32,906 nucleotides of DNA from Armatimonadota bacterium. Lineage in GTDB: Bacteria; Sysuimicrobiota; Sysuimicrobiia; Sysuimicrobiales; Humicultoraceae. A program made the translations under genes and the position numbers. The notes beneath the pieces were generated by a model. It had not been told where the DNA came from. It made no database searches and saw only the letters and a program-made list of their open reading frames with translations. Where the stretch lies: assembly GCA_031081715.1 (NCBI GenBank), contig JAVHMA010000023.1, positions 24,009-56,914 of the forward strand. Direction: 5' to 3'. Position 1 is the stretch's first letter; the number at the start of each line of letters is the position of its first letter. Below, piece by piece: positions 12,501 through 32,906 of this stretch.

Positions 12501-12794
12501 ATGCGGACTGTCGGCCTGCGCGAGTTGAAGAACCGCCTCAGCGCCTACGTCCGGCACGTTCGCGCCGGCGAGGTTGTGGTGGTCACGGACCGCGGGCAGG
12601 TGGTGGCGGAGCTTCGCGCGCCGGGCCACGTGCCGGCTGGCACGAAGGTGGACCCCGCGGTGGCCCGGCTCGTCAACCGCGGCCTGCTGAACCTCGGCGC
12701 GTCGAACACCGCACGTGTCTACCCGCCGCTGCCGCGTCTGTTGCGGGCCACGACGGCCGCGAAGCTACTCCGCGCCGAACGCGGCGCACGGTGA
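12501..12794 (+). CDS. VapB/Phd-type antitoxin of a PIN toxin module
   Basis: A 97-residue protein. Residues 1-50 match the Phd/YefM-type DNA-binding and dimerisation domain: Val-Gly-Leu-Arg-Glu-Leu-Lys-Asn-Arg-Leu-Ser, then a Val-Arg-Ala-Gly-Glu turn and Val-Val-Val-Thr-Asp-Arg-Gly-Gln-Val-Val-Ala-Glu-Leu. The C-terminal part should wrap the toxin. It is read from the first base or so of the message (see the promoter entry). Its stop overlaps the toxin GTG start (GTGA), the usual coupling in such modules. It probably represses its own promoter through the palindrome between the -35 and -10 boxes. Confidence 0.92.
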   Translation: MRTVGLRELKNRLSAYVRHVRAGEVVVVTDRGQVVAELRAPGHVPAGTKVDPAVARLVNRGLLNLGASNTARVYPPLPRLLRATTAAKLLRAERGAR

Positions 12795-13228
12795 CGCTGT
12801 ACGCCGAGACGAGCGCAGTCCTGGCGTGGCTGCTCGGCGAGGCCGCGGCAGCCGAGGTTCGCCACGAGCTTGGAGCGGCGGGGGAGGTCTTCACGTCCGT
12901 GCTCACGCTCGTGGAGTCCGACCGCGTCCTCATCCGGGCGCAGGTGGTGGACGGCCTCGCGGAGGGCGATGTCGTCGATCGCCGCCGGGCGCTCGCGCGT
13001 GCCGGCCGCCACTGGCACCTCGTGCAGCTCCACGAGGAGATTCTGGACCGCGCCCGCCGCCCGTTCCCGGGTGAGCCGGTCCGCACCCTCGATGCCCTGC
13101 ACCTGGCGAGCGCGCTGGCTGTGCGGGCGGCGGTGCCCGACGTGGTCATCCTGAGTCTGGACGACGACATCCGTCGGGCGGGCGCGGATTTGGGGTTCGT
13201 CATCGCGCCCGTGGACAGCCCGAGCTGA
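12791..13228 (+). CDS. VapC-type PIN-domain toxin ribonuclease
   Basis: A 145-residue PIN-domain protein, the usual VapC length. It should cut RNA using a metal bound by acidic residues. These are visible at Glu6 (in Tyr-Ala-Glu-Thr-Ser-Ala-Val-Leu), Glu42, Asp101 (in Leu-Asp-Ala-Leu-His-Leu-Ala-Ser) and Asp124/125. The first acid is Glu where most PIN nucleases have Asp; this variant occurs in some VapC groups and still offers a carboxylate. The GTG start overlaps the antitoxin stop. The 3' end faces the EthD-like gene across a nested hairpin. Confidence 0.92.
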   Translation: MTLYAETSAVLAWLLGEAAAAEVRHELGAAGEVFTSVLTLVESDRVLIRAQVVDGLAEGDVVDRRRALARAGRHWHLVQLHEEILDRARRPFPGEPVRTLDALHLASALAVRAAVPDVVILSLDDDIRRAGADLGFVIAPVDSPS

Positions 13229-13619: not shown

Positions 13620-16396
13620 GCCCGTCCTCCCTCCGTGGCAGCCGCCGCGACCGCGGTTCCCTCCAGCGCATAGACGATCGCCTCGTCCATGGACATCGCC
13701 TGCCCGCGCGCCAAGGCGCGCTCGAAGGCCGCCTCGCCGAGCGCCGCGCGAGTGCGCTGCCGTTGCCGCTCGTACTCGGCCCGGAACAGCGCGGGCACCG
13801 GGGCACCGATCGCCTCGCGCTGCGTCTCGAACGCGCCGAACAGCGCCGCGGCCCGGTCGTAGGTGCCGAGCGAGGCGGCGGCGCACCCGAGCGCGGCCAG
13901 GCAGGTGACGATGCCGCGCTTCTCGCCGAGGTCGCGCCGCAGCGCCAAGCAGTCCTGGTAGAGCTCCATCGCGCGCCGGTGATCGCCCATCGCGGAGACC
14001 GCGATCCCGAGGTTCAGTTCGCCGTAGGCGATGTACGAGCGGTCGCCGATCTGCCGCAGCCGCACGAGCGCCTCCTCGAAGAACGCCACGGCGCCGGGCA
14101 GGTCGCCGCGGTCGCGCGCGAGCTGGCCGAGGTTGATCGAGACGATCGCGATCGCCCACGTGTGCCCGAGGGCGGTGAGCTGGCGCAGGCTCTCCTCGAG
14201 GAGCGCCTGCGCCTTCTCGGCCTCGCCCTTGGAGCGCGCGACGAACCCCAGCGTCGCGCGCGCCCAGGCGGTGGCCACGTTGTCCCCGAGTTGGGTGGCC
14301 AGGGTGAGTCCCTCGCCGCCCAGCACCTCCGCCTTGCCGTAGTTCTCGGTGCGGCACGCGTGGATGCCCAGAATCACCAGACACGACGCCTCGGTGCGCC
14401 GGTCGTTGACGTCCCGGGAAAGCGCCAGCGCCTCGGAGGCGAGCGCCTCGACCCGCTCGAAGTCGTCCAGACGCAGCGCCAGCCCGGCGGCGGCGTTCAG
14501 CAGCTTCACGCGCGCCGCGGCCGACGCGGCGTGCGCGCGCGGCAGCAGCTCGTTCATCCAACGCCAGCCTTCGGTCCAGTACCCGCGCACCTCCCAGAAC
14601 CACCACAGCGCGCCCGCGAGTCGCACGCCGGTTTCGACGTCCGGGTCGGTGCGGCTCCACTCGAGGGCTGTCCGGAAGTTATCGTGTTCGGCCTCCAGCC
14701 GGTCGAGCCACAGCTTCTGCTCGGGGCCCTGCAGGCGGAGCTCGGCCTCCTCCGCAAGTTGGAGGAAGAACGCGCGGTGCGCGCGGCGCGCGGCGTCGGC
14801 CTCGCCCGAGGCCACCAGGCGCGGCATCGCGAACTGCCGGAGCGTCTCCAGCATCCGGTAGCGCGTCTGCCGCCCCTCGCCGGGCTCGACCATGACGAGC
14901 GACTTGTCGATCAGCCGGGCGAGCAGGTCGAGGATGTCCGGCGGCGCCGCGCCGGTGGCCCGGCACACGCCCTCCGCGGTCTCGAGGGTGAAGCCACCCG
15001 CGAAGACCGAGAGGTGGCGGAACAGCCGGCGCTCGTCCTCGGCGAGGAGATCGTAGCTCCATTCGATCGCGGCTTCGAGCGTCTGGTGGTGCGGGAGGCT
15101 GCTGCGCGGCCCGCCGGTGAGCAGGCGGAAGCGGTCCTCCAGGCGCGTCGCGATCTCCTGGACCGACAGGACGCGAGTGCGCGCGGCCGCGAGCTCGATC
15201 GCCAGCGGGATGCCGTCCAGCCGCCGGGCGATCTCGCCGATCGCGCGGGCGTTCTCTGCGGTCAGCGCGAATCCGGGCCGGTAGAGGGACGCGCGCTCCA
15301 CGAACAGTCGGGCGGCGGCCGAGCGCGCCACCCCGTCGGCGTCCGCCGCGCGCGGATCGGGTACCGGCAGCGGCGGTACGGTGAAGAGCCGCTCGCCGGC
15401 GACGCCCAGCGGCTCGCGGCTCGTCGCGAGGATACGCAGCCCGGGCGCGACCTGCAGCAGCACCGTGCAGAGGGCCGCGCACGCCGCGAGCAGGTGCTCG
15501 CAGTTGTCCAGCACCAGGAGCGCCGTACGTTCGCGCAGCACCTCGGTCAACACGTCCTGCGGCGGCCGGCCGGGCTCGCGCACGCCGAGGGCGCCGGCCA
15601 CGGTCTGCGCGACGAGCTCCGGTTCGCGGAGGGGCGCCAGGTCCACGAGCCACACCCCGTCCGGGAATCGGTCGAGCAAGTCCGCCGCCGCTTGGAGGGC
15701 GAGGCGCGTCTTGCCCGCGCCGCCTGGGCCGCGCAGCGTCAGCAGCCTGGCCGAGGCGAGCAGGTGCTTCACCTCGGCCATCTCGGCGTCGCGCCCCACG
15801 AAGCTCGTGATCTGCACCGGTAGGTTGTTGGGCGCCACGTCCATCGAGCGCAGCGGCGGGAAGGCCGAGGGTAGCGCGGGGTGAGTCGCCTGGAACAGGC
15901 GCTCGGGCCGCTGCAGGTCCTTCAGCCGGTGGGGCCCAAGGTCGACGAGGCTCAGGTCCTCGGGCAGGTCGTGCGCCGCGAGCGCCGCCGTCGCCTCGGA
16001 GAGCAGGATCTGCCCACCGTGGCCCGCCGCGCAGACCCGCGCGGCGCGGTGCACGTCGAGGCCTACATAGGTGTCGGCCGAGCGCACCGCCTCGCCGGTA
16101 TGCAGGCCGATGCGGACGCGCACGCCCGCGCCCTCGGGCCAGGCATGCGCCGCGATCGCGCGCTGCGCCGCGACCGCGGCGGCGACCGCGTGCGCCGCCA
16201 CCGGAAAGACCACGAAGAACGAGTCGCCCGCGGTGCTGACCTCCACCCCGCCGGCCGCGCGGAAGATCCTACGCAGCAGGTCATCGTGGGCGGCGAGGAC
16301 CGCGGGATAGCGGTCGCCCAGCGTTTGGAGGAGCCGCGTGGAGCCCTCGATGTCCGTGAACAGGAACGTGACCGTGCCGGTCGGCAACGCCGGCAT
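13616..16396 (-). CDS. class III cyclase-like domain + STAND ATPase + TPR signalling protein
   Basis: A 926-residue cytoplasmic regulator. Residues 5-170 are a class III nucleotide cyclase homology domain with both metal-binding aspartates (Asp15 in Phe-Thr-Asp-Ile-Glu-Gly-Ser-Thr, and Asp58). The usual substrate-specifying Lys is Ser54 and the usual Asn before the Arg is His116, so cyclase activity may be altered or lost. Residues about 195-480 are a STAND/NB-ARC ATPase with a P-loop at 223-230 (Gly-Pro-Gly-Gly-Ala-Gly-Lys-Thr) and Walker B at 293-298. The remainder is TPR-like helical repeats. No DNA-binding domain is seen. The ATG has GGAGGA eight bases upstream; a longer Arg-rich extension upstream is rejected. 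It is divergent from the second importer operon. Confidence 0.9.
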   Translation of the reverse strand: MPALPTGTVTFLFTDIEGSTRLLQTLGDRYPAVLAAHDDLLRRIFRAAGGVEVSTAGDSFFVVFPVAAHAVAAAVAAQRAIAAHAWPEGAGVRVRIGLHTGEAVRSADTYVGLDVHRAARVCAAGHGGQILLSEATAALAAHDLPEDLSLVDLGPHRLKDLQRPERLFQATHPALPSAFPPLRSMDVAPNNLPVQITSFVGRDAEMAEVKHLLASARLLTLRGPGGAGKTRLALQAAADLLDRFPDGVWLVDLAPLREPELVAQTVAGALGVREPGRPPQDVLTEVLRERTALLVLDNCEHLLAACAALCTVLLQVAPGLRILATSREPLGVAGERLFTVPPLPVPDPRAADADGVARSAAARLFVERASLYRPGFALTAENARAIGEIARRLDGIPLAIELAAARTRVLSVQEIATRLEDRFRLLTGGPRSSLPHHQTLEAAIEWSYDLLAEDERRLFRHLSVFAGGFTLETAEGVCRATGAAPPDILDLLARLIDKSLVMVEPGEGRQTRYRMLETLRQFAMPRLVASGEADAARRAHRAFFLQLAEEAELRLQGPEQKLWLDRLEAEHDNFRTALEWSRTDPDVETGVRLAGALWWFWEVRGYWTEGWRWMNELLPRAHAASAAARVKLLNAAAGLALRLDDFERVEALASEALALSRDVNDRRTEASCLVILGIHACRTENYGKAEVLGGEGLTLATQLGDNVATAWARATLGFVARSKGEAEKAQALLEESLRQLTALGHTWAIAIVSINLGQLARDRGDLPGAVAFFEEALVRLRQIGDRSYIAYGELNLGIAVSAMGDHRRAMELYQDCLALRRDLGEKRGIVTCLAALGCAAASLGTYDRAAALFGAFETQREAIGAPVPALFRAEYERQRQRTRAALGEAAFERALARGQAMSMDEAIVYALEGTAVAAAATEGGRA

Positions 16397-26106: not shown

Positions 26107-26454
26107 GCCCGAGCGACTCGACGGCCGATCAGTTACGGGCGGGTCAGTTCCAGAGCGAGCGGTCTGGGCTGTTCTGTGTCTGCACCCATGGGCTGAACCG
26201 GGGCCGGAAGGAAGGTTGAGCTTCAGGAGGCCAGCGGACCGACTGCAGCCCGGTTGAGCCTCGATGATCTTAAGGTACTGGGCTGACCGGTAGGGCAGTA
26301 TAATGCCTGGTAAGGGCCCGGTGGGATGACGGGAACTCGGGTGGGTCAAGCGACTGCCGGGGGATGGGCAACTGGCCCTGTCGTCTTAGGCTCACAGGGG
26401 CGGCGTGTTAGGCTGATCGGTCTAAGCGTGAGTTCGGCAGCGGAGGGCACACCG
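26107..26454. other. 348-base gap at the left edge of the cassette region
   Basis: This stretch separates the metabolic genes from the accessory region. It has lower GC than its left neighbours and no recognised gene. A TATAAT box (26299-26304) stands about 100 bases before the first GTTRRRY core and could read into the cassettes, but no -35 box matches it. A small GGGC/GCCC hairpin is near 26370. The first cassette core (GTTAGGC, 26407-26413) lies near its right end, and no attC-like palindrome is found upstream of that core. Confidence 0.5.
26407..26413 (+). other. GTTRRRY core at the left end of the cassette pair
   Basis: GTTAGGC fits the integron recombination core GTTRRRY and lies 48 bases before the first cassette gene. 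Unlike the two sites to its right, it has no matching upstream arm, so it may be an attI-like site, the remnant of a truncated attC, or chance. Confidence 0.4.
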
Positions 26455-27191
26455 ATGACGAAGCTCGCCAGCAAAAGCGTTCGGTGCGGCAGTTGCCGCG
26501 CGTCGAGCGAGCACACGGTGCTGTTGAGCACCAACGCCTTCGGCAGCCCAGACCTCGACCTTCGCCCGCCAGGGATGGAGCGGTCCACGATGGACACATG
26601 GCTCCAGCTATGTCCAAAGTGCGGCTACTGCGCCCCGGACCTAAGCCAGCCGCCGCCCGACCCGGCCGTCCTACGGTCGGAGGTGTACCGCGCGGCCCTC
26701 CGGGCGGCTGAGTTCCCGGAACTGGCACGGCGGTTCTTGGCGTTCGCCGTGGCAGCCGGGCCGTCGGACCCTGCCACCGCGGCACTTGCGTACTTGCAGG
26801 CGGCGTGGGTGTGCGACGACGCTGGACAGCCCGAGCAGGCGGTCGAGAGCCGGCGGCAGTCGGCCGCGTGGTTCCGCCGGTGCAAGCCGTTCGCCGCGAC
26901 GAGCCACGGGGCCGTGATGGGCGCTATCTTGGTGGATGTGCTCCGCCGGTCCGGGCAGTTCGCCGAGGCGTCGTCCGAGTGCCAGGCCGCGCTGGCGTCG
27001 CCTGGGGCCACTGGGGTCATCCGCAAAGTGCTGGAGTTCCAGCAGCGGCTCATCGGCGGCTCGGACGCCGGACCGCACAGTCTCTCGGAGTGCGAGTAGC
27101 ACGCCGAACCGTCCACTGCAGCAGACACCGCCCGCACGAGCTTTCCGCGACGTGTAGCCTCCTCAGCGGCCGGTGCTGCTGAGCGGGGGCG
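26408..27191 (+). mobile_element. integron-type gene cassette 1 (zinc-ribbon protein gene)
   Basis: The segment runs from the cleavage point of one GTTRRRY core to the next, 784 bases, and holds one gene and an attC-like site. The gene starts 47 bases from the left boundary and stops four bases before the attC-like site. This compact gene-plus-attC layout is the definition of an integron cassette. No integron integrase gene is in the window, so the pair would be a cluster of attC sites lacking an integrase, or a distant part of a larger array. Confidence 0.6.
26455..27099 (+). CDS. zinc-ribbon protein of unknown function (DUF2225-like pattern)
   Basis: A 214-residue protein. The N-terminal third has two Cys pairs that should form a zinc ribbon: Cys11-x2-Cys14 and Cys53-Pro-Lys-Cys56 in a Cys-Pro-Lys-Cys-Gly-Tyr context. 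Between them lies Asn-Ala-Phe-Gly-Ser-Pro-Asp-Leu-Asp-Leu-Arg-Pro-Pro, a stretch I associate with cassette-like or paralogous proteins in planctomycetes. The rest (about 70-205) is helical and looks TPR-like. The ATG has GGAGGG seven bases upstream and the frame is open 43 codons further up only by chance. It is the sole gene of cassette 1. Role unknown; a sensing or RNA/protein-binding role would be a guess. Confidence 0.8.
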   Translation: MTKLASKSVRCGSCRASSEHTVLLSTNAFGSPDLDLRPPGMERSTMDTWLQLCPKCGYCAPDLSQPPPDPAVLRSEVYRAALRAAEFPELARRFLAFAVAAGPSDPATAALAYLQAAWVCDDAGQPEQAVESRRQSAAWFRRCKPFAATSHGAVMGAILVDVLRRSGQFAEASSECQAALASPGATGVIRKVLEFQQRLIGGSDAGPHSLSECE

Positions 27192-27197
27192 TTAGAC
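27103..27197 (+). other. attC-like recombination site 1
   Basis: A 95-base imperfect palindrome ending in GTTAGAC (27191-27197). The matching outer arm is GCCGAAC (27103-27109; one base off RYYYAAC). The inner arms are 27119-27135 and 27166-27181: 15 of 16 positions pair, with one bulged A (27125) in the 5' arm and one C-C mismatch. A bulged base in the 5' (L'') arm, an unpaired spacer between inner and outer arms and a loop of about 30 bases are features of integron attC sites. Confidence 0.7.
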
Positions 27198-27265
27198 GGG
27201 TGCGGATGATGCGCTGGCGGAAGGCCGAAGCAGTCGAGTAGAATGGTTTCTGGAGCTCAACGGAT

Positions 27266-27472
27266 ATGGTCTTCCGAGTCGAGATCGAACAAGAGACAGA
27301 CGGCCGATGGATCGCAGAGGTCATTGACTTGCCCGGGGTAATTTCGTATGGGACCACCCGGGATGAGGCAGTGGCGCGAGTAAAGGCCCTGGCGCTCAGA
27401 GTGGTTGCCGATCGTCTGGAGCATGGGGAAACAGCTCCGGATCTTCCGAGTATCTCCTTCGCCGCCGCATGA
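27266..27472 (+). CDS. hicB: HicB-type antitoxin
   Basis: A 68-residue protein matching the HicB partial RNase H-like fold: Phe-Arg-Val-Glu-Ile-Glu-Gln-Glu-Thr-Asp-Gly-Arg-Trp-Ile-Ala-Glu-Val, then Leu-Pro-Gly-Val and a Gly-Thr-Thr-Arg-Asp-Glu-Ala-Val-Ala helix. It is short, with no separate DNA-binding domain at the C-terminus, as in the small HicB group that precedes hicA. It should neutralise HicA. GGAGC lies about ten bases before the ATG. Its stop overlaps the hicA ATG (ATGA). With the partner toxin broken, it may be a solo antitoxin acting on other HicA proteins. Confidence 0.88.
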   Translation: MVFRVEIEQETDGRWIAEVIDLPGVISYGTTRDEAVARVKALALRVVADRLEHGETAPDLPSISFAAA

Positions 27473-27681
27473 CTGAACGGCCAAGCGCGCGGGCTCGGCG
27501 CGTCTAGGCCGCCTTGTTGCGGATCGGGTGGTCTATCAAGCGGCAGAGCGGTTCACATCGAGTTCTTTCACGGCCCGGCTGGTCCGACACAGTCTTCGCT
27601 TTCCACGACGACGAGGAGTTGGGTCCTCGGATACTGGCCAGAGTGGCGAAGCGCACAGGTCTCAGGCCGGAAGACCTGTAG
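27469..27681 (+). pseudogene. hicA: hicA toxin gene interrupted by one in-frame TAG
   Basis: From an ATG overlapping the hicB stop (ATGA), a 70-codon frame matches the HicA double-stranded RNA-binding fold. It has Arg-Ile-Gly-Trp, then Arg-Gln-Ser-Gly-Ser-His30 with the catalytic His, Val-Phe-Ala-Phe-His-Asp, and Glu-Leu-Gly-Pro-Arg-Ile-Leu-Ala with a typical end. Codon 13 (27505-27507) is TAG, within the first helix, and no indel is present. The natural stop is also TAG and many genes here end in TAG, so the codon is not reassigned. A TTG two codons after the stop could restart a shortened protein lacking part of helix 1. A single-base nonsense change (for example from CAG or GAG) would explain it. 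Confidence 0.85.
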
Positions 27682-27704
27682 GATAGAGAGGTCGAGAGGA
27701 GACC

Positions 27705-27796
27705 GTCTAGCAACGGCCTGCAGCCGGCGGCGTCGCCTGGCTTGAGCGTGACCACGTTACTCGGCTACGCTGCGGCTGAGGCCGATTTCGTTAGAC
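27705..27796 (+). other. attC-like recombination site 2
   Basis: A 92-base imperfect palindrome with outer arms GTCTAGC (27705-27711; one base off RYYYAAC) and GTTAGAC (27790-27796). The inner arms, 27714-27733 and 27767-27784, pair almost fully, with one G-T pair and two bulged G bases (27720 and 27727) in the 5' arm. Short unpaired spacers (AA and ATTTC) separate inner and outer arms. Two extrahelical bases in the 5' arm are characteristic of attC sites and determine strand choice by the integrase. This is the better of the two sites. Confidence 0.75.
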
Positions 27797-27929: not shown

Positions 27930-29282
27930 GTGGGCCTCGTCGAGCTGCTCAAGCGCCCGGAGGGCAAGACCCTCGAGTTCAAGCGCGAGCTGTCCGCGCC
28001 GGAGGGGGCGCTTCGGACGATCGTGGCCTTCGCGAACACCGCGGGCGGGACGCTCCTTGTCGGCGTCGAGAACCGGACCGGCCACGTGCGCGGCATTACG
28101 GAACCTCTCGATCTGGAGGAGCGCCTGGCCAATCTGATCAGCGATCAGGTGACCCCTCGGCTCGTGCCGGAGATCGAGATCCTGCCCTGGCGGCGCACGC
28201 AGGTCCCGGCGGTGCGGGTCCATCCGAGCCCGAGCCGCCCGCACTACCTCAAGCGCGAAGGATCCGACAGCGGCGTCTACGTGCGTGTGGGTTCCACCAA
28301 CCGGCGGGCCGACCGGGAGCTGGTCGAGGAGCTCCGCCGATTTGCGCGCGGCGAAGCCTTCGACGAACAGCCGATGCCGGATCTCGACTCGGAAGCGCTG
28401 AACTTCCGAGCCGCTTCCGAGTCGTTTGCGCCCATCCGCCGGATCACCCGGCGGGATCTCGAAACACTCCGCCTGGTAACGGATCACCAGGGACGCAAGG
28501 TGCCCACCGTCGGCGGGGTCCTTCTCTTCGGTCGGGATCGCCAGCGGCACTTCCCCGACGCCTGGATCCAGGCTGGACGGTTCCGGGGCCCCGACCGGAG
28601 CCGTATCCTCGGCCGCGCCGAGATCCGCTCCCATCCGGTCCGGGCCATCGAGGAGGCGATCGCCTTCGTGCAGAAGCACGGGCTCCACGGGGCCGGGATC
28701 GGCGCCGTGCGCCGCCGCGAGCGCTGGACGCTGCCGCCCGTGGCGGTCCGCGAAGCCGTCATCAAGGCGGTGGCGCACGCCGACTACGCGCAGCGTGGCG
28801 CCCCGCTGCGCATCGCGATCTTCGACGACCGGCTGGAGGTCGAGAACCCCGGGCTTCTGCCCTTCGGGCTCACCGTCGAGGACCTCCCGCGCGGGGTCTC
28901 GAAGCTTCGCAATCGCGTCATCGGGCGGGTGTTCCACCTGCTCGGGCTGATCGAGCAGTGGGGCAGCGGCGTGCAGCGCATGACGCGCGCCTGCCGCGAA
29001 GCGGGGCTCGCCCCTCCAGTCTTCGAGGAGATTGGCACGCGCTTCCGGGTGACCCTCTCGACCGCCCGCATCGGGCCACCGGTCCTCGACGAGACCGACC
29101 GGGCCATCGTGGATGCTCTGGCGGGCGGCAAGGGGCTGCTCACGAGCGAGATCGCGAGGGCGATCGGCCTCACGCCACGCGCCACGCGCACGCGGCTTGC
29201 GCGCCTGGTCGCCGGCGGGCTTGTGCGCGAGGTCGGCACGGGACCGCAGGACCCGAAGCGACGCTACTACCGGACGGAATGA
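27930..29282 (+). CDS. AlbA_2 domain ATP-binding protein with C-terminal winged helix
   Basis: A 450-residue protein from a GTG just before [17 protein letters not shown], the family start. Residues 1-125 form the AlbA_2 (schlafen-like) domain with [12 protein letters not shown]. A GHKL-type ATPase-like domain (about 245-370) shows [10 protein letters not shown] and [10 protein letters not shown]. A winged helix (about 395-445) ends the protein. An ATG at 27846 would add 28 unconserved residues. Genes of this kind often sit next to type I restriction genes as regulators or helicase-like accessories. Its stop overlaps an ATG in the hsdM frame. Confidence 0.87.
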
Positions 29283-29299
29283 CGAATCGAGGAACGCCG

Positions 29300-30884
<1,585 letters not shown>

Positions 30885-30895
<11 letters not shown>

Positions 30896-31175
30896 GCACG
30901 TGCTGAAAGAGAAGCGGGAGGAGATCCTGCGCCTGTGTGCCAAGCACGGGGCGCGCAACGTTCGGCTCTTCGGTTCCGTGGCGCGGGGGGAAGCCGATGC
31001 CCGAAGCGATGTTGATTTCCTGGTCGAGATGGAGCCCGGACGGAGCTTGTTCGACCTGGGAGGGCTTCAGTACGAGTTGGAGCATCTTCTGGGCTGCCCG
31101 GTGGACGTGGTGACCGAGCGGGGGCTCAAGGTGCGCATCCGGGATCGGGTGCTCCGGGAGGCGGTGCCGCTGTGA
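30885..31175 (+). CDS. mntA: MntA-type nucleotidyltransferase antitoxin
   Basis: A 96-residue minimal nucleotidyltransferase. The signature G-S-x10-D-x-D is complete (Gly30, Ser31, Asp42, Asp44). In studied pairs this protein transfers AMP to a tyrosine of HepT and so silences it. The ATG lies inside the last codons of hsdM, at the position where the hsdS ATG lies in the duplicated hsdM tail downstream. The stop overlaps the hepT GTG start. The module sits between hsdM and hsdS, a place where it can sense or protect the expression of the restriction genes. Confidence 0.93.
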
Positions 31176-31516
31176 GAGACCCGAGGGAACGGTTGCGCGA
31201 CATGCTGGAGGCCATCGCGGCCATCGAGCGCCACCTTTACCGCGGCAAGGTCGCCTTCGAACAGGACGAGTTGTTGCAGGGCTGGTTCGTCAGGAACCTG
31301 CAAATCATCGGAGAGGCGGCGCGGGCTTTGCCTGAGGATGTGCGGGCGCTTGCACCGGAGGTGGAATGGCCCAAGATCATCGGGATGCGGAACGTGTTGG
31401 TGCACGGATACTTCGATATTGACGCCGAGGTCGTGTGGGAGGCAGCCAGTCGCGATGCCCTGGCACTCAAGCCGCGCATTGAGCAGCTTCTGCAGCGGCT
31501 GGAGAAACAGGAATGA
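31172..31516 (+). CDS. hepT: HepT-type (HEPN/DUF86) toxin ribonuclease
   Basis: A 114-residue HEPN-domain protein with the active-site motif R-x4-H-x-Y complete (Arg73, His78, Tyr80), the tyrosine being the AMPylation site in studied pairs. Glu-Ala-Ala upstream and an all-helical pattern fit the DUF86 family. It should cleave RNA (tRNA in known cases) when released. The GTG start overlaps the mntA stop and its TGA stop overlaps the ATG of the 32-codon hsdM-tail copy (ATGA), so translation stays coupled through to hsdS. Confidence 0.93.
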
Positions 31517-31611
31517 AGCCGGTCCGTGTGGCTCGCGAGCAGCAGGCCGAGGCCAGGAAGCTCGACGCCGCCATCGCCAAGAACCTTAAGGAGCTGGGGT
31601 ATGGCGGGTGA
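31513..31611 (+). CDS. 32-codon ORF, diverged copy of the hsdM 3' end
   Basis: A short frame that aligns with the last 33 codons (including stop) of hsdM, from a Met-Lys near 30793 to the stop. The last 78 bases match at 66 positions (about 85%). The protein ends in the same Lys-Glu-Leu-Gly-Tyr-Gly pattern. The hsdS ATG (31601) lies inside its end exactly as the mntA ATG lies inside the end of hsdM. It is probably a remnant of the hsdM-hsdS junction left by insertion of mntA-hepT rather than a gene with its own function. It may still serve to carry ribosomes from hepT into hsdS. Confidence 0.8.
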
Positions 31612-32906
31612 GTGGGTGGAGAAAGCGATTGTCGATATCGCCGACGTGGCCGGGGGAAGTACCCCGTCGACACGAGACCCCGAGAACTTCGACGGCGACG
31701 TCCCTTGGATCACGCCGAAGGACTTGGCTGGTCCGCATCCACGTTACGTCAGTCGCGGCGAACGCAATCTGTCTCGCAAGGGATTACAAAGTTGCTCTGC
31801 CCAGCTGCTGCCCGAAAACAGCGTGCTGTTGTCGAGCCGGGCACCGATCGGCTACCTCGCCATCGCCGCGAACCCGCTCGCAACGAATCAGGGGTTCCGC
31901 AGCTTGGTAGTCAAGCCTGACTATGACCATGAGTATGTGTACTACTGGTTGTCTGCCAACGTTGAGCAACTCGAACGCCACGCGACGGGGTCTACGTTCA
32001 AGGAGCTTTCCGGATCGGCTCTTAAGCAGATTCGTATTCGGCTTCCGGCCGACCGCAGCGAACAACGCGCCATCGCCCACATCCTCGGCACGCTGGACGA
32101 CAAGATCGAGCTGAACCGGAGGATGAGCGAGACGCTGGAGGCGATGGCGCGGGCGCTCTTCAAGTCGTGGTTCGTGGACTTCGACCCCGTGCGCGCCAAG
32201 ATGGAGGGCCGCTGGCGCCGCGGTGAATCCCTCCCCGGCCTGCCCGCCCACCTCTACGGCCTCTTCCCCGCCCGCCTCGTGGACTCCGAGCTCGGCGAGA
32301 TTCCGGAGGGGTGGGAGGTGGGTACGCTGGGCGACGTGTGCTCCCTGAACCCCGAGGTGTGGACGAAGGAAACTAGGCCATCCGAGATCCGATACGTCGA
32401 CCTGTCCAACACAAAGTGGGGTCGAATCGAGACCGTTACGGTGTATCCGGCGGCTGAGGCGCCGAGTCGGGCACAGCGCGTGCTTCGCCCAGGCGACACG
32501 ATCGTCGGAACAGTCAGGCCGGCAAACGGCTCCTACGCCTTGATCTCCGAGCCAGGACTTACCGGCAGCACCGGCTTTGCCGTCCTTCGACCAAACAAGC
32601 CCGCATACGCTGAGGTCGTTTATCTCGCTGCCACTTCGAGAGACAACATCGACACGCTCGCTCACTTAGCCGACGGTGCGGCGTACCCGGCAGTTCGCCC
32701 TGAGGTAGTCGCCGCCACGCCTATCGTCCATCCCGACAACGATCTGCTCGAGCGGTTAGCTTCTGCGTCAGGTCCTCTGCTTGCGAAGATGGCGACGAAC
32801 GAGCGCCAATCCCGCACCCTCGCCGCCCTGCGCGATGCGCTGCTGCCCAAGCTCATCTCCGGCGAGATTCGGGTGAAGGATGCCGAACGCTTCTTGAAGG
32901 AGCGTG
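31601..32906 (+). CDS. hsdS: type I restriction-modification specificity subunit, 3' end beyond window
   Basis: An open frame of 435 codons that reaches the window end without a stop. Two target-recognition domains read the two halves of the DNA site: about residues 1-160 (Gly-Gly-Ser-Thr-Pro-Ser near the start, Ile-Thr-Pro-Lys-Asp-Leu) and about 225-400 ([10 protein letters not shown]). A conserved helical spacer (about 165-205) has [12 protein letters not shown] and Trp-Phe-Val-Asp-Phe-Asp-Pro-Val. A second spacer at about 405-425 has [12 protein letters not shown]. Both recognition domains are visibly less GC-rich than the spacers, as expected of exchanged domains. The start overlaps the hsdM-tail copy. 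Confidence 0.95.

Follow-up and report, generated by a model that had tools for sequence, protein, structure and literature searches.

Integrons acquire gene cassettes by means of the integrase IntI, whose substrates are attI and the bottom strand of attC in its folded form; recombination between the two places new cassettes beside the promoter (PMC8618304; PMC9668308; PMC9024848). Clusters of attC sites lacking an integron-integrase are termed CALINs in the framework of IntegronFinder, and were about as numerous as complete integrons in a survey (PMC9024848); loss of intI is one of three listed routes to a CALIN (PMC8618304). In the chromosomal integrons of Treponema, intI is transcribed toward attI, in the direction of the cassettes, and T. 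phagedenis has lost intI and kept its attC sites (PMC3607928). Under the name "pseudo-integrons", about one-third of intI genes were found to be pseudogenes, and integrase function is often lost (PMC2426708).

The locus described here lies in a window of 32,906 nucleotides, the whole stretch of DNA that was analysed. It contains two nearby attC sites and no IntI, and is a CALIN in which attI has been retained. Its features are as follows:

26179 to 26257, plus strand: remnant of the intI 3' end, decayed and frameshifted, about 25 codons long, from DNA alignment to the intI 3' end of locus L048
26258 to 26438, plus strand: attI region with putative Pc-like cassette promoter, from homology to attI regions 3' of intact intI
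26299 to 26304, plus strand: TATAAT, putative -10 box of Pc, at the same place in most aligned attI regions
26386 to 26395, plus strand: attI direct repeat TTAGGCTCAC, putative IntI-binding repeat, conserved in alignment A4
26408 to 26426, plus strand: attI core repeat GTTAGGCTGATCGGTCTAA, the most conserved block of A4
26432 to 26438, plus strand: junction of attI and cassette, G^TTCGGC, crossover 26432/26433; its reverse complement is the R'' of attC1
26433 to 27191, plus strand: gene cassette 1, attI crossover to attC1 crossover
26455 to 27099, plus strand: cassette gene 1, coding for a 214-aa protein of unknown function that contains cysteine pairs and matches TPR weakly
27103 to 27197, plus strand: attC1, GCCGAAC...GTTAGAC, bulged bases G27118 and A27125, covariance model match
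27192 to 27790, plus strand: gene cassette 2, attC1 crossover to attC2 crossover
27266 to 27472, plus strand: hicB-like antitoxin gene, PF15919, E 5.8e-5, below the curated cut-off
27469 to 27681, plus strand: hicA-like toxin gene, PF07927, E 5.2e-9, over the cut-off for 27514-27681
27705 to 27796, plus strand: attC2, GTCTAGC...GTTAGAC, bulged bases G27720 and G27727, covariance model match
27930 to 32906, plus strand: block after attC2 with genes for a Schlafen/AlbA_2 regulator, hsdM, an MNT/HEPN pair and hsdS, the last truncated by the contig end

attC sites and cassette register

The two imperfect palindromes are genuine attC sites. As described in the initial annotation, both end in GTTAGAC and follow soon after a gene stop, attC1 starting 4 bases past the stop at 27099 and attC2 starting 24 bases past that at 27681, with about 0.5 kb between the two sites. 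The annotation had proposed a covariance-model search and a search for related sites elsewhere in the genome, and both were positive. Model R2, for which 16 attC sites were taken from other genomes and none from this one, matched attC1 at 54.5 bits (E 2e-9) and attC2 at 39.4 bits (E 3e-6) in the 33-kb window, both on the strand of the genes; the next-best place in the whole window scored 18.8 bits, leaving only these two at a comparable score. Two further attC groups, cut by contig ends, were found in the same genome, and locus L079 on contig C39 carries a group of three attC sites at 13078-13135, 13751-13809 and 15136-15207 on the minus strand, heading to the contig end; a platform for this group, should there be one, is missing from the assembly. 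Each of the two sites in the window displays two extrahelical bases in one arm only, 6 bp apart, like the sites of relatives; A27125, G27720 and G27727 had been recognised as bulged, but the second bulge of attC1, G27118, had been missed.

In a 14-site alignment, stem cells were paired in 89.9% of cases compared to 72.1% after shuffling and at most 44% when slid, and 15 of 23 stem pairs showed changes on both sides, indicating covariation; this alignment, which was used for the first model R1 only, takes in 4 sites from the same genome and 2 sites of relatives that were later found to be wrongly oriented. The folding energy of the palindromes was modestly unusual (z -0.6 to -2.8), thus the support for attC comes from the pattern and not from stability. 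The modest energies, together with the position of the palindromes after gene stops, would also suit ordinary terminators or chance hairpins, but such a reading is ruled out by the independent covariance model and the covariation, and the two-bulge geometry, the register of the R boxes, the attI context and the lack of a T run behind the hairpins leave it with a practically negligible probability.

If circular cassettes are inserted by IntI at G^TT, the R'' of a cassette should match the R' at its opening and not the R' at its close, and this is what was observed. The box that opens cassette 1 is GTTCGGC, and the R'' of this cassette, GCCGAAC, is its exact reverse complement; for cassette 2 the opening box is GTTAGAC, and the R'' reads GTCTAGC, one base off. 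Across 16 junctions in 9 arrays, which were hand-collected from the arrays at hand in a test that was not blind, 61 of the 64 variable positions agreed between R'' and the opening R'. For the closing R' the number was 46 and after shuffling the mean was 41.4, and none of 100,000 shuffles reached the match with the opening box. Both R'' boxes are one base off RYYYAAC, as noted earlier, and the match to the opening R' accounts for most of what had appeared as deviation in these outer arms.

The passengers, initially read as a small unknown protein and a toxin-antitoxin pair, are a 214-aa protein of unknown function and a HicBA-like pair. A GGAGGG motif (26442-26447) precedes cassette gene 1, for which 14 relatives with 29-43% identity were identified; they are distributed over various bacterial and archaeal groups, among them Actinomycetota, cyanobacteria, Firmicutes and Methanofastidiosum. 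Around these distant homologues neither R1 nor R2 detected attC, and the idea that cassette 1 has travelled through other phyla as an attC cassette was set aside, with the reservation that both models are adapted to sites of this order. Genes occurring without flanking palindromes in relatives had been named as evidence against attC sites; such homologues were indeed observed, but in other phyla and with order-tuned models, and are not decisive. In hicA, an in-frame TAG (27505-27507) lies between the ATG at 27469, which overlaps the hicB stop, and the HicA core, suggesting that the toxin may be inactive or may restart at TTG 27514.

The block after attC2 contains the only hsdM of the genome, while the only hsdR is truncated where contig C21 (L080) ends and is followed on that contig by attC. 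As both genes are single-copy and attC lies behind hsdR, C21 probably continues this contig, C46, and the array would then probably extend onto C21 with the restriction operon inside it. No direct end overlap of C46 and C21 was detected, the adjacency being deduced from the single-copy hsdM and hsdR. A reading of the restriction block as one giant cassette received no support, as the R'' after hsdR, GATGAAC, fails to match the R' of attC2, GTTAGAC. This type I restriction operon, the only one in the genome, carries the MNT/HEPN pair between hsdM and hsdS. Outside the array, a small prevent-host-death-like and PIN-like gene pair was noted by eye at 12501-13228, a possible VapBC-type toxin-antitoxin pair.

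The attI region and the integrase relic

The initial annotation had overlooked the attI/promoter region and the intI relic before the array. The stretch 26268-26438 recurs once in the same genome with 80% identity, on contig C32 and again before a cassette array. The same region occurs directly 3' of an intact intI, on the same strand, at L048 in genome G034 (87%) and at L038 in G010 (70%), both of the same order. In favour of the initial reading, attC sites of this kind also occur next to intact intI genes in relatives. At L048, the attI homology lies 35 bp past the intI match, and at L039 of genome G003 an assembly gap splits intI and the conserved attI core follows about 130 bp behind it. 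Eleven attI regions can be aligned as far as an AGTT that all of them share, and beyond it they differ. A conserved platform up to G^TT with differing cassettes beyond is the behaviour of attI, and by this homology the DNA upstream of the first cassette is identified as attI, and it carries a -10 element resembling that of a promoter; no -35 box was evident in the region. Three TTAGGCTGAC-like repeats are present, the second and third being the strongest. The GTTAGGC at 26408, earlier taken as the first R' core, is a repeat internal to attI, and the true crossover lies in GTTCGGC at 26432-26438, the point at which the loci cease to be homologous. A leader reading frame running from ATG 26326 through attI into cassette gene 1 was also considered and rejected, as the frame, by eye, stops inside attI in relatives including G034 and G010.

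Immediately before attI, the positions 26179-26434 aligned with the intI 3' end and attI of L048 at 80% identity (E 4e-59), and 26179-26300 alone matched the intI 3' end and the attI start of G034 at 74% (E 2e-20). Around the catalytic tyrosine, the relic reads VCTHGLNR compared to IYTHVLNR in intact IntI, and the frame is broken. The relic starts 72 bp past the stop of an amine oxidase gene (26106). In a tblastn search it yielded E 0.87, being too short and too decayed, and its identification is based on the DNA alignment. The amine oxidase is without a close relative in the family, and the comparison did not provide an empty site.

Two more attI sites with intI relics occur in the same genome. 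On C32 the relic is shorter, with PMDSASG followed by a stop where PMDGLHPG and a stop are expected, and on C39 the third attI of the genome is accompanied by a decayed intI relic. Across the order, 28 attI matches were obtained in 16 of 43 genomes. Three are accompanied by a full or near-full length intI, one by a frameshifted intI and six by fragments or stubs; for the remaining 18, protein search revealed no intI within 1.5 kb, though contig ends truncate some of these, and attI matches of the lowest scores (<30 bits) may be due to chance. On contig C1 of G003 (L087, 643-851), intI keeps codons 1-48 and 302-319 directly before attI, which reads as an internal deletion caught half-way. On contig C8 of G016, two attI copies were observed 3 kb apart (L094, 396-445; L104, 1501-1550) with attC on either side of each and no intI found; here attI itself may have been duplicated or carried along with cassettes.

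Probable integrase loss and alternative origins

That no integrase is in view, as initially stated, also holds for the rest of the assembly. With the TIGR02249 profile, the best proteins of the genome reached 85 and 75 bits, the cut-off being 265; these are full-length XerC/XerD-like proteins on C41 and C4, and Xer-like proteins of other genomes score similarly. At a threshold of E 1e-25 no IntI candidate remained. Among integron-type tyrosine recombinases, the locus accordingly offers the intI 3' relic only. Directly visible in the DNA are the attC sites with the cassette register, the attI region with the relic before it, and the lack of a recognisable IntI anywhere else in the assembly. They make it very probable that this is the platform of a chromosomal integron whose integrase has been lost. 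The earlier classification as an integron array or an attC cluster lacking an integrase was right in substance but incomplete, as it lacked the attI/promoter region and the relic.

With no intI in view and cassettes on several contigs, the array could also be a classic CALIN, in which an IntI encoded elsewhere inserted cassettes off-target at a non-attI site that never was a platform. However, directly before the array there are the conserved attI and the 3' relic of intI, arranged as in intact integrons, which argues for a decayed platform and renders off-target insertion highly improbable. A further explanation, that the system is still active and a functional intI in an unassembled gap serves this attI and the cassettes in trans, gains some ground from the assembly, a draft of 49 contigs in which the C39 array heads to a contig end and in which a gap could harbour intI. 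Relatives with several attI per genome and few intact intI also fit, as does the finding that the foreign IntI1 can use archaeal attC sites (PMC9668308). But no IntI was found although the genome is 97% complete, all three attI sites have relics only, and the in-frame stop in hicA is consistent with an array under little selection, so that continued activity appears unlikely. Improbable as well is the idea that the unit which persists in several copies in this order is attI with its promoter rather than the integrase, with intI-less attI pads being served in trans by rare or passing integrases; if true, integrase loss need not stop cassette capture at a site.

If the locus is a platform that lost its integrase, the original order would have been intI, attI with Pc, and cassettes on one strand, and the lost IntI would have inserted the cassettes via the folded bottom strand of attC. 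A deletion would then have taken intI except for the last 25 or so codons, which have decayed since; still in place are attI and its putative promoter as well as the two cassettes, each with its attC site. The cassettes would now be fixed, transcribed from the predicted attI-borne promoter, for which the first cassette appears suitably positioned, and mobile only with IntI in trans.

Comparison with known integrase-less integrons

An integrase-less integron is already a known kind of object, and the locus adds that the manner of integrase loss is visible. As in a CALIN, at least two attC sites occur close together with no IntI near; in contrast, the attI/promoter region and the intI 3' relic are retained, so that the route of origin, loss of intI, can be read directly. 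CALIN origin has mostly been inferred so far, and the platform appears to be caught part-way, with attI intact and intI cut to its tail, while relatives display the intact state and intermediate deletions. With the Treponema integrons the locus shares an intI pointing to attI and the precedent of a species with attC sites but a lost intI; it differs in belonging to another, high-GC lineage and in the presence of several relic platforms in one genome. As with intI pseudogenes, integrase function is lost, but here nearly the whole gene is gone and what is left falls below detection by protein search. Protein-based integrase searches miss such platforms, which an attI model can recover, and this would allow the frequency of integrase loss to be measured.
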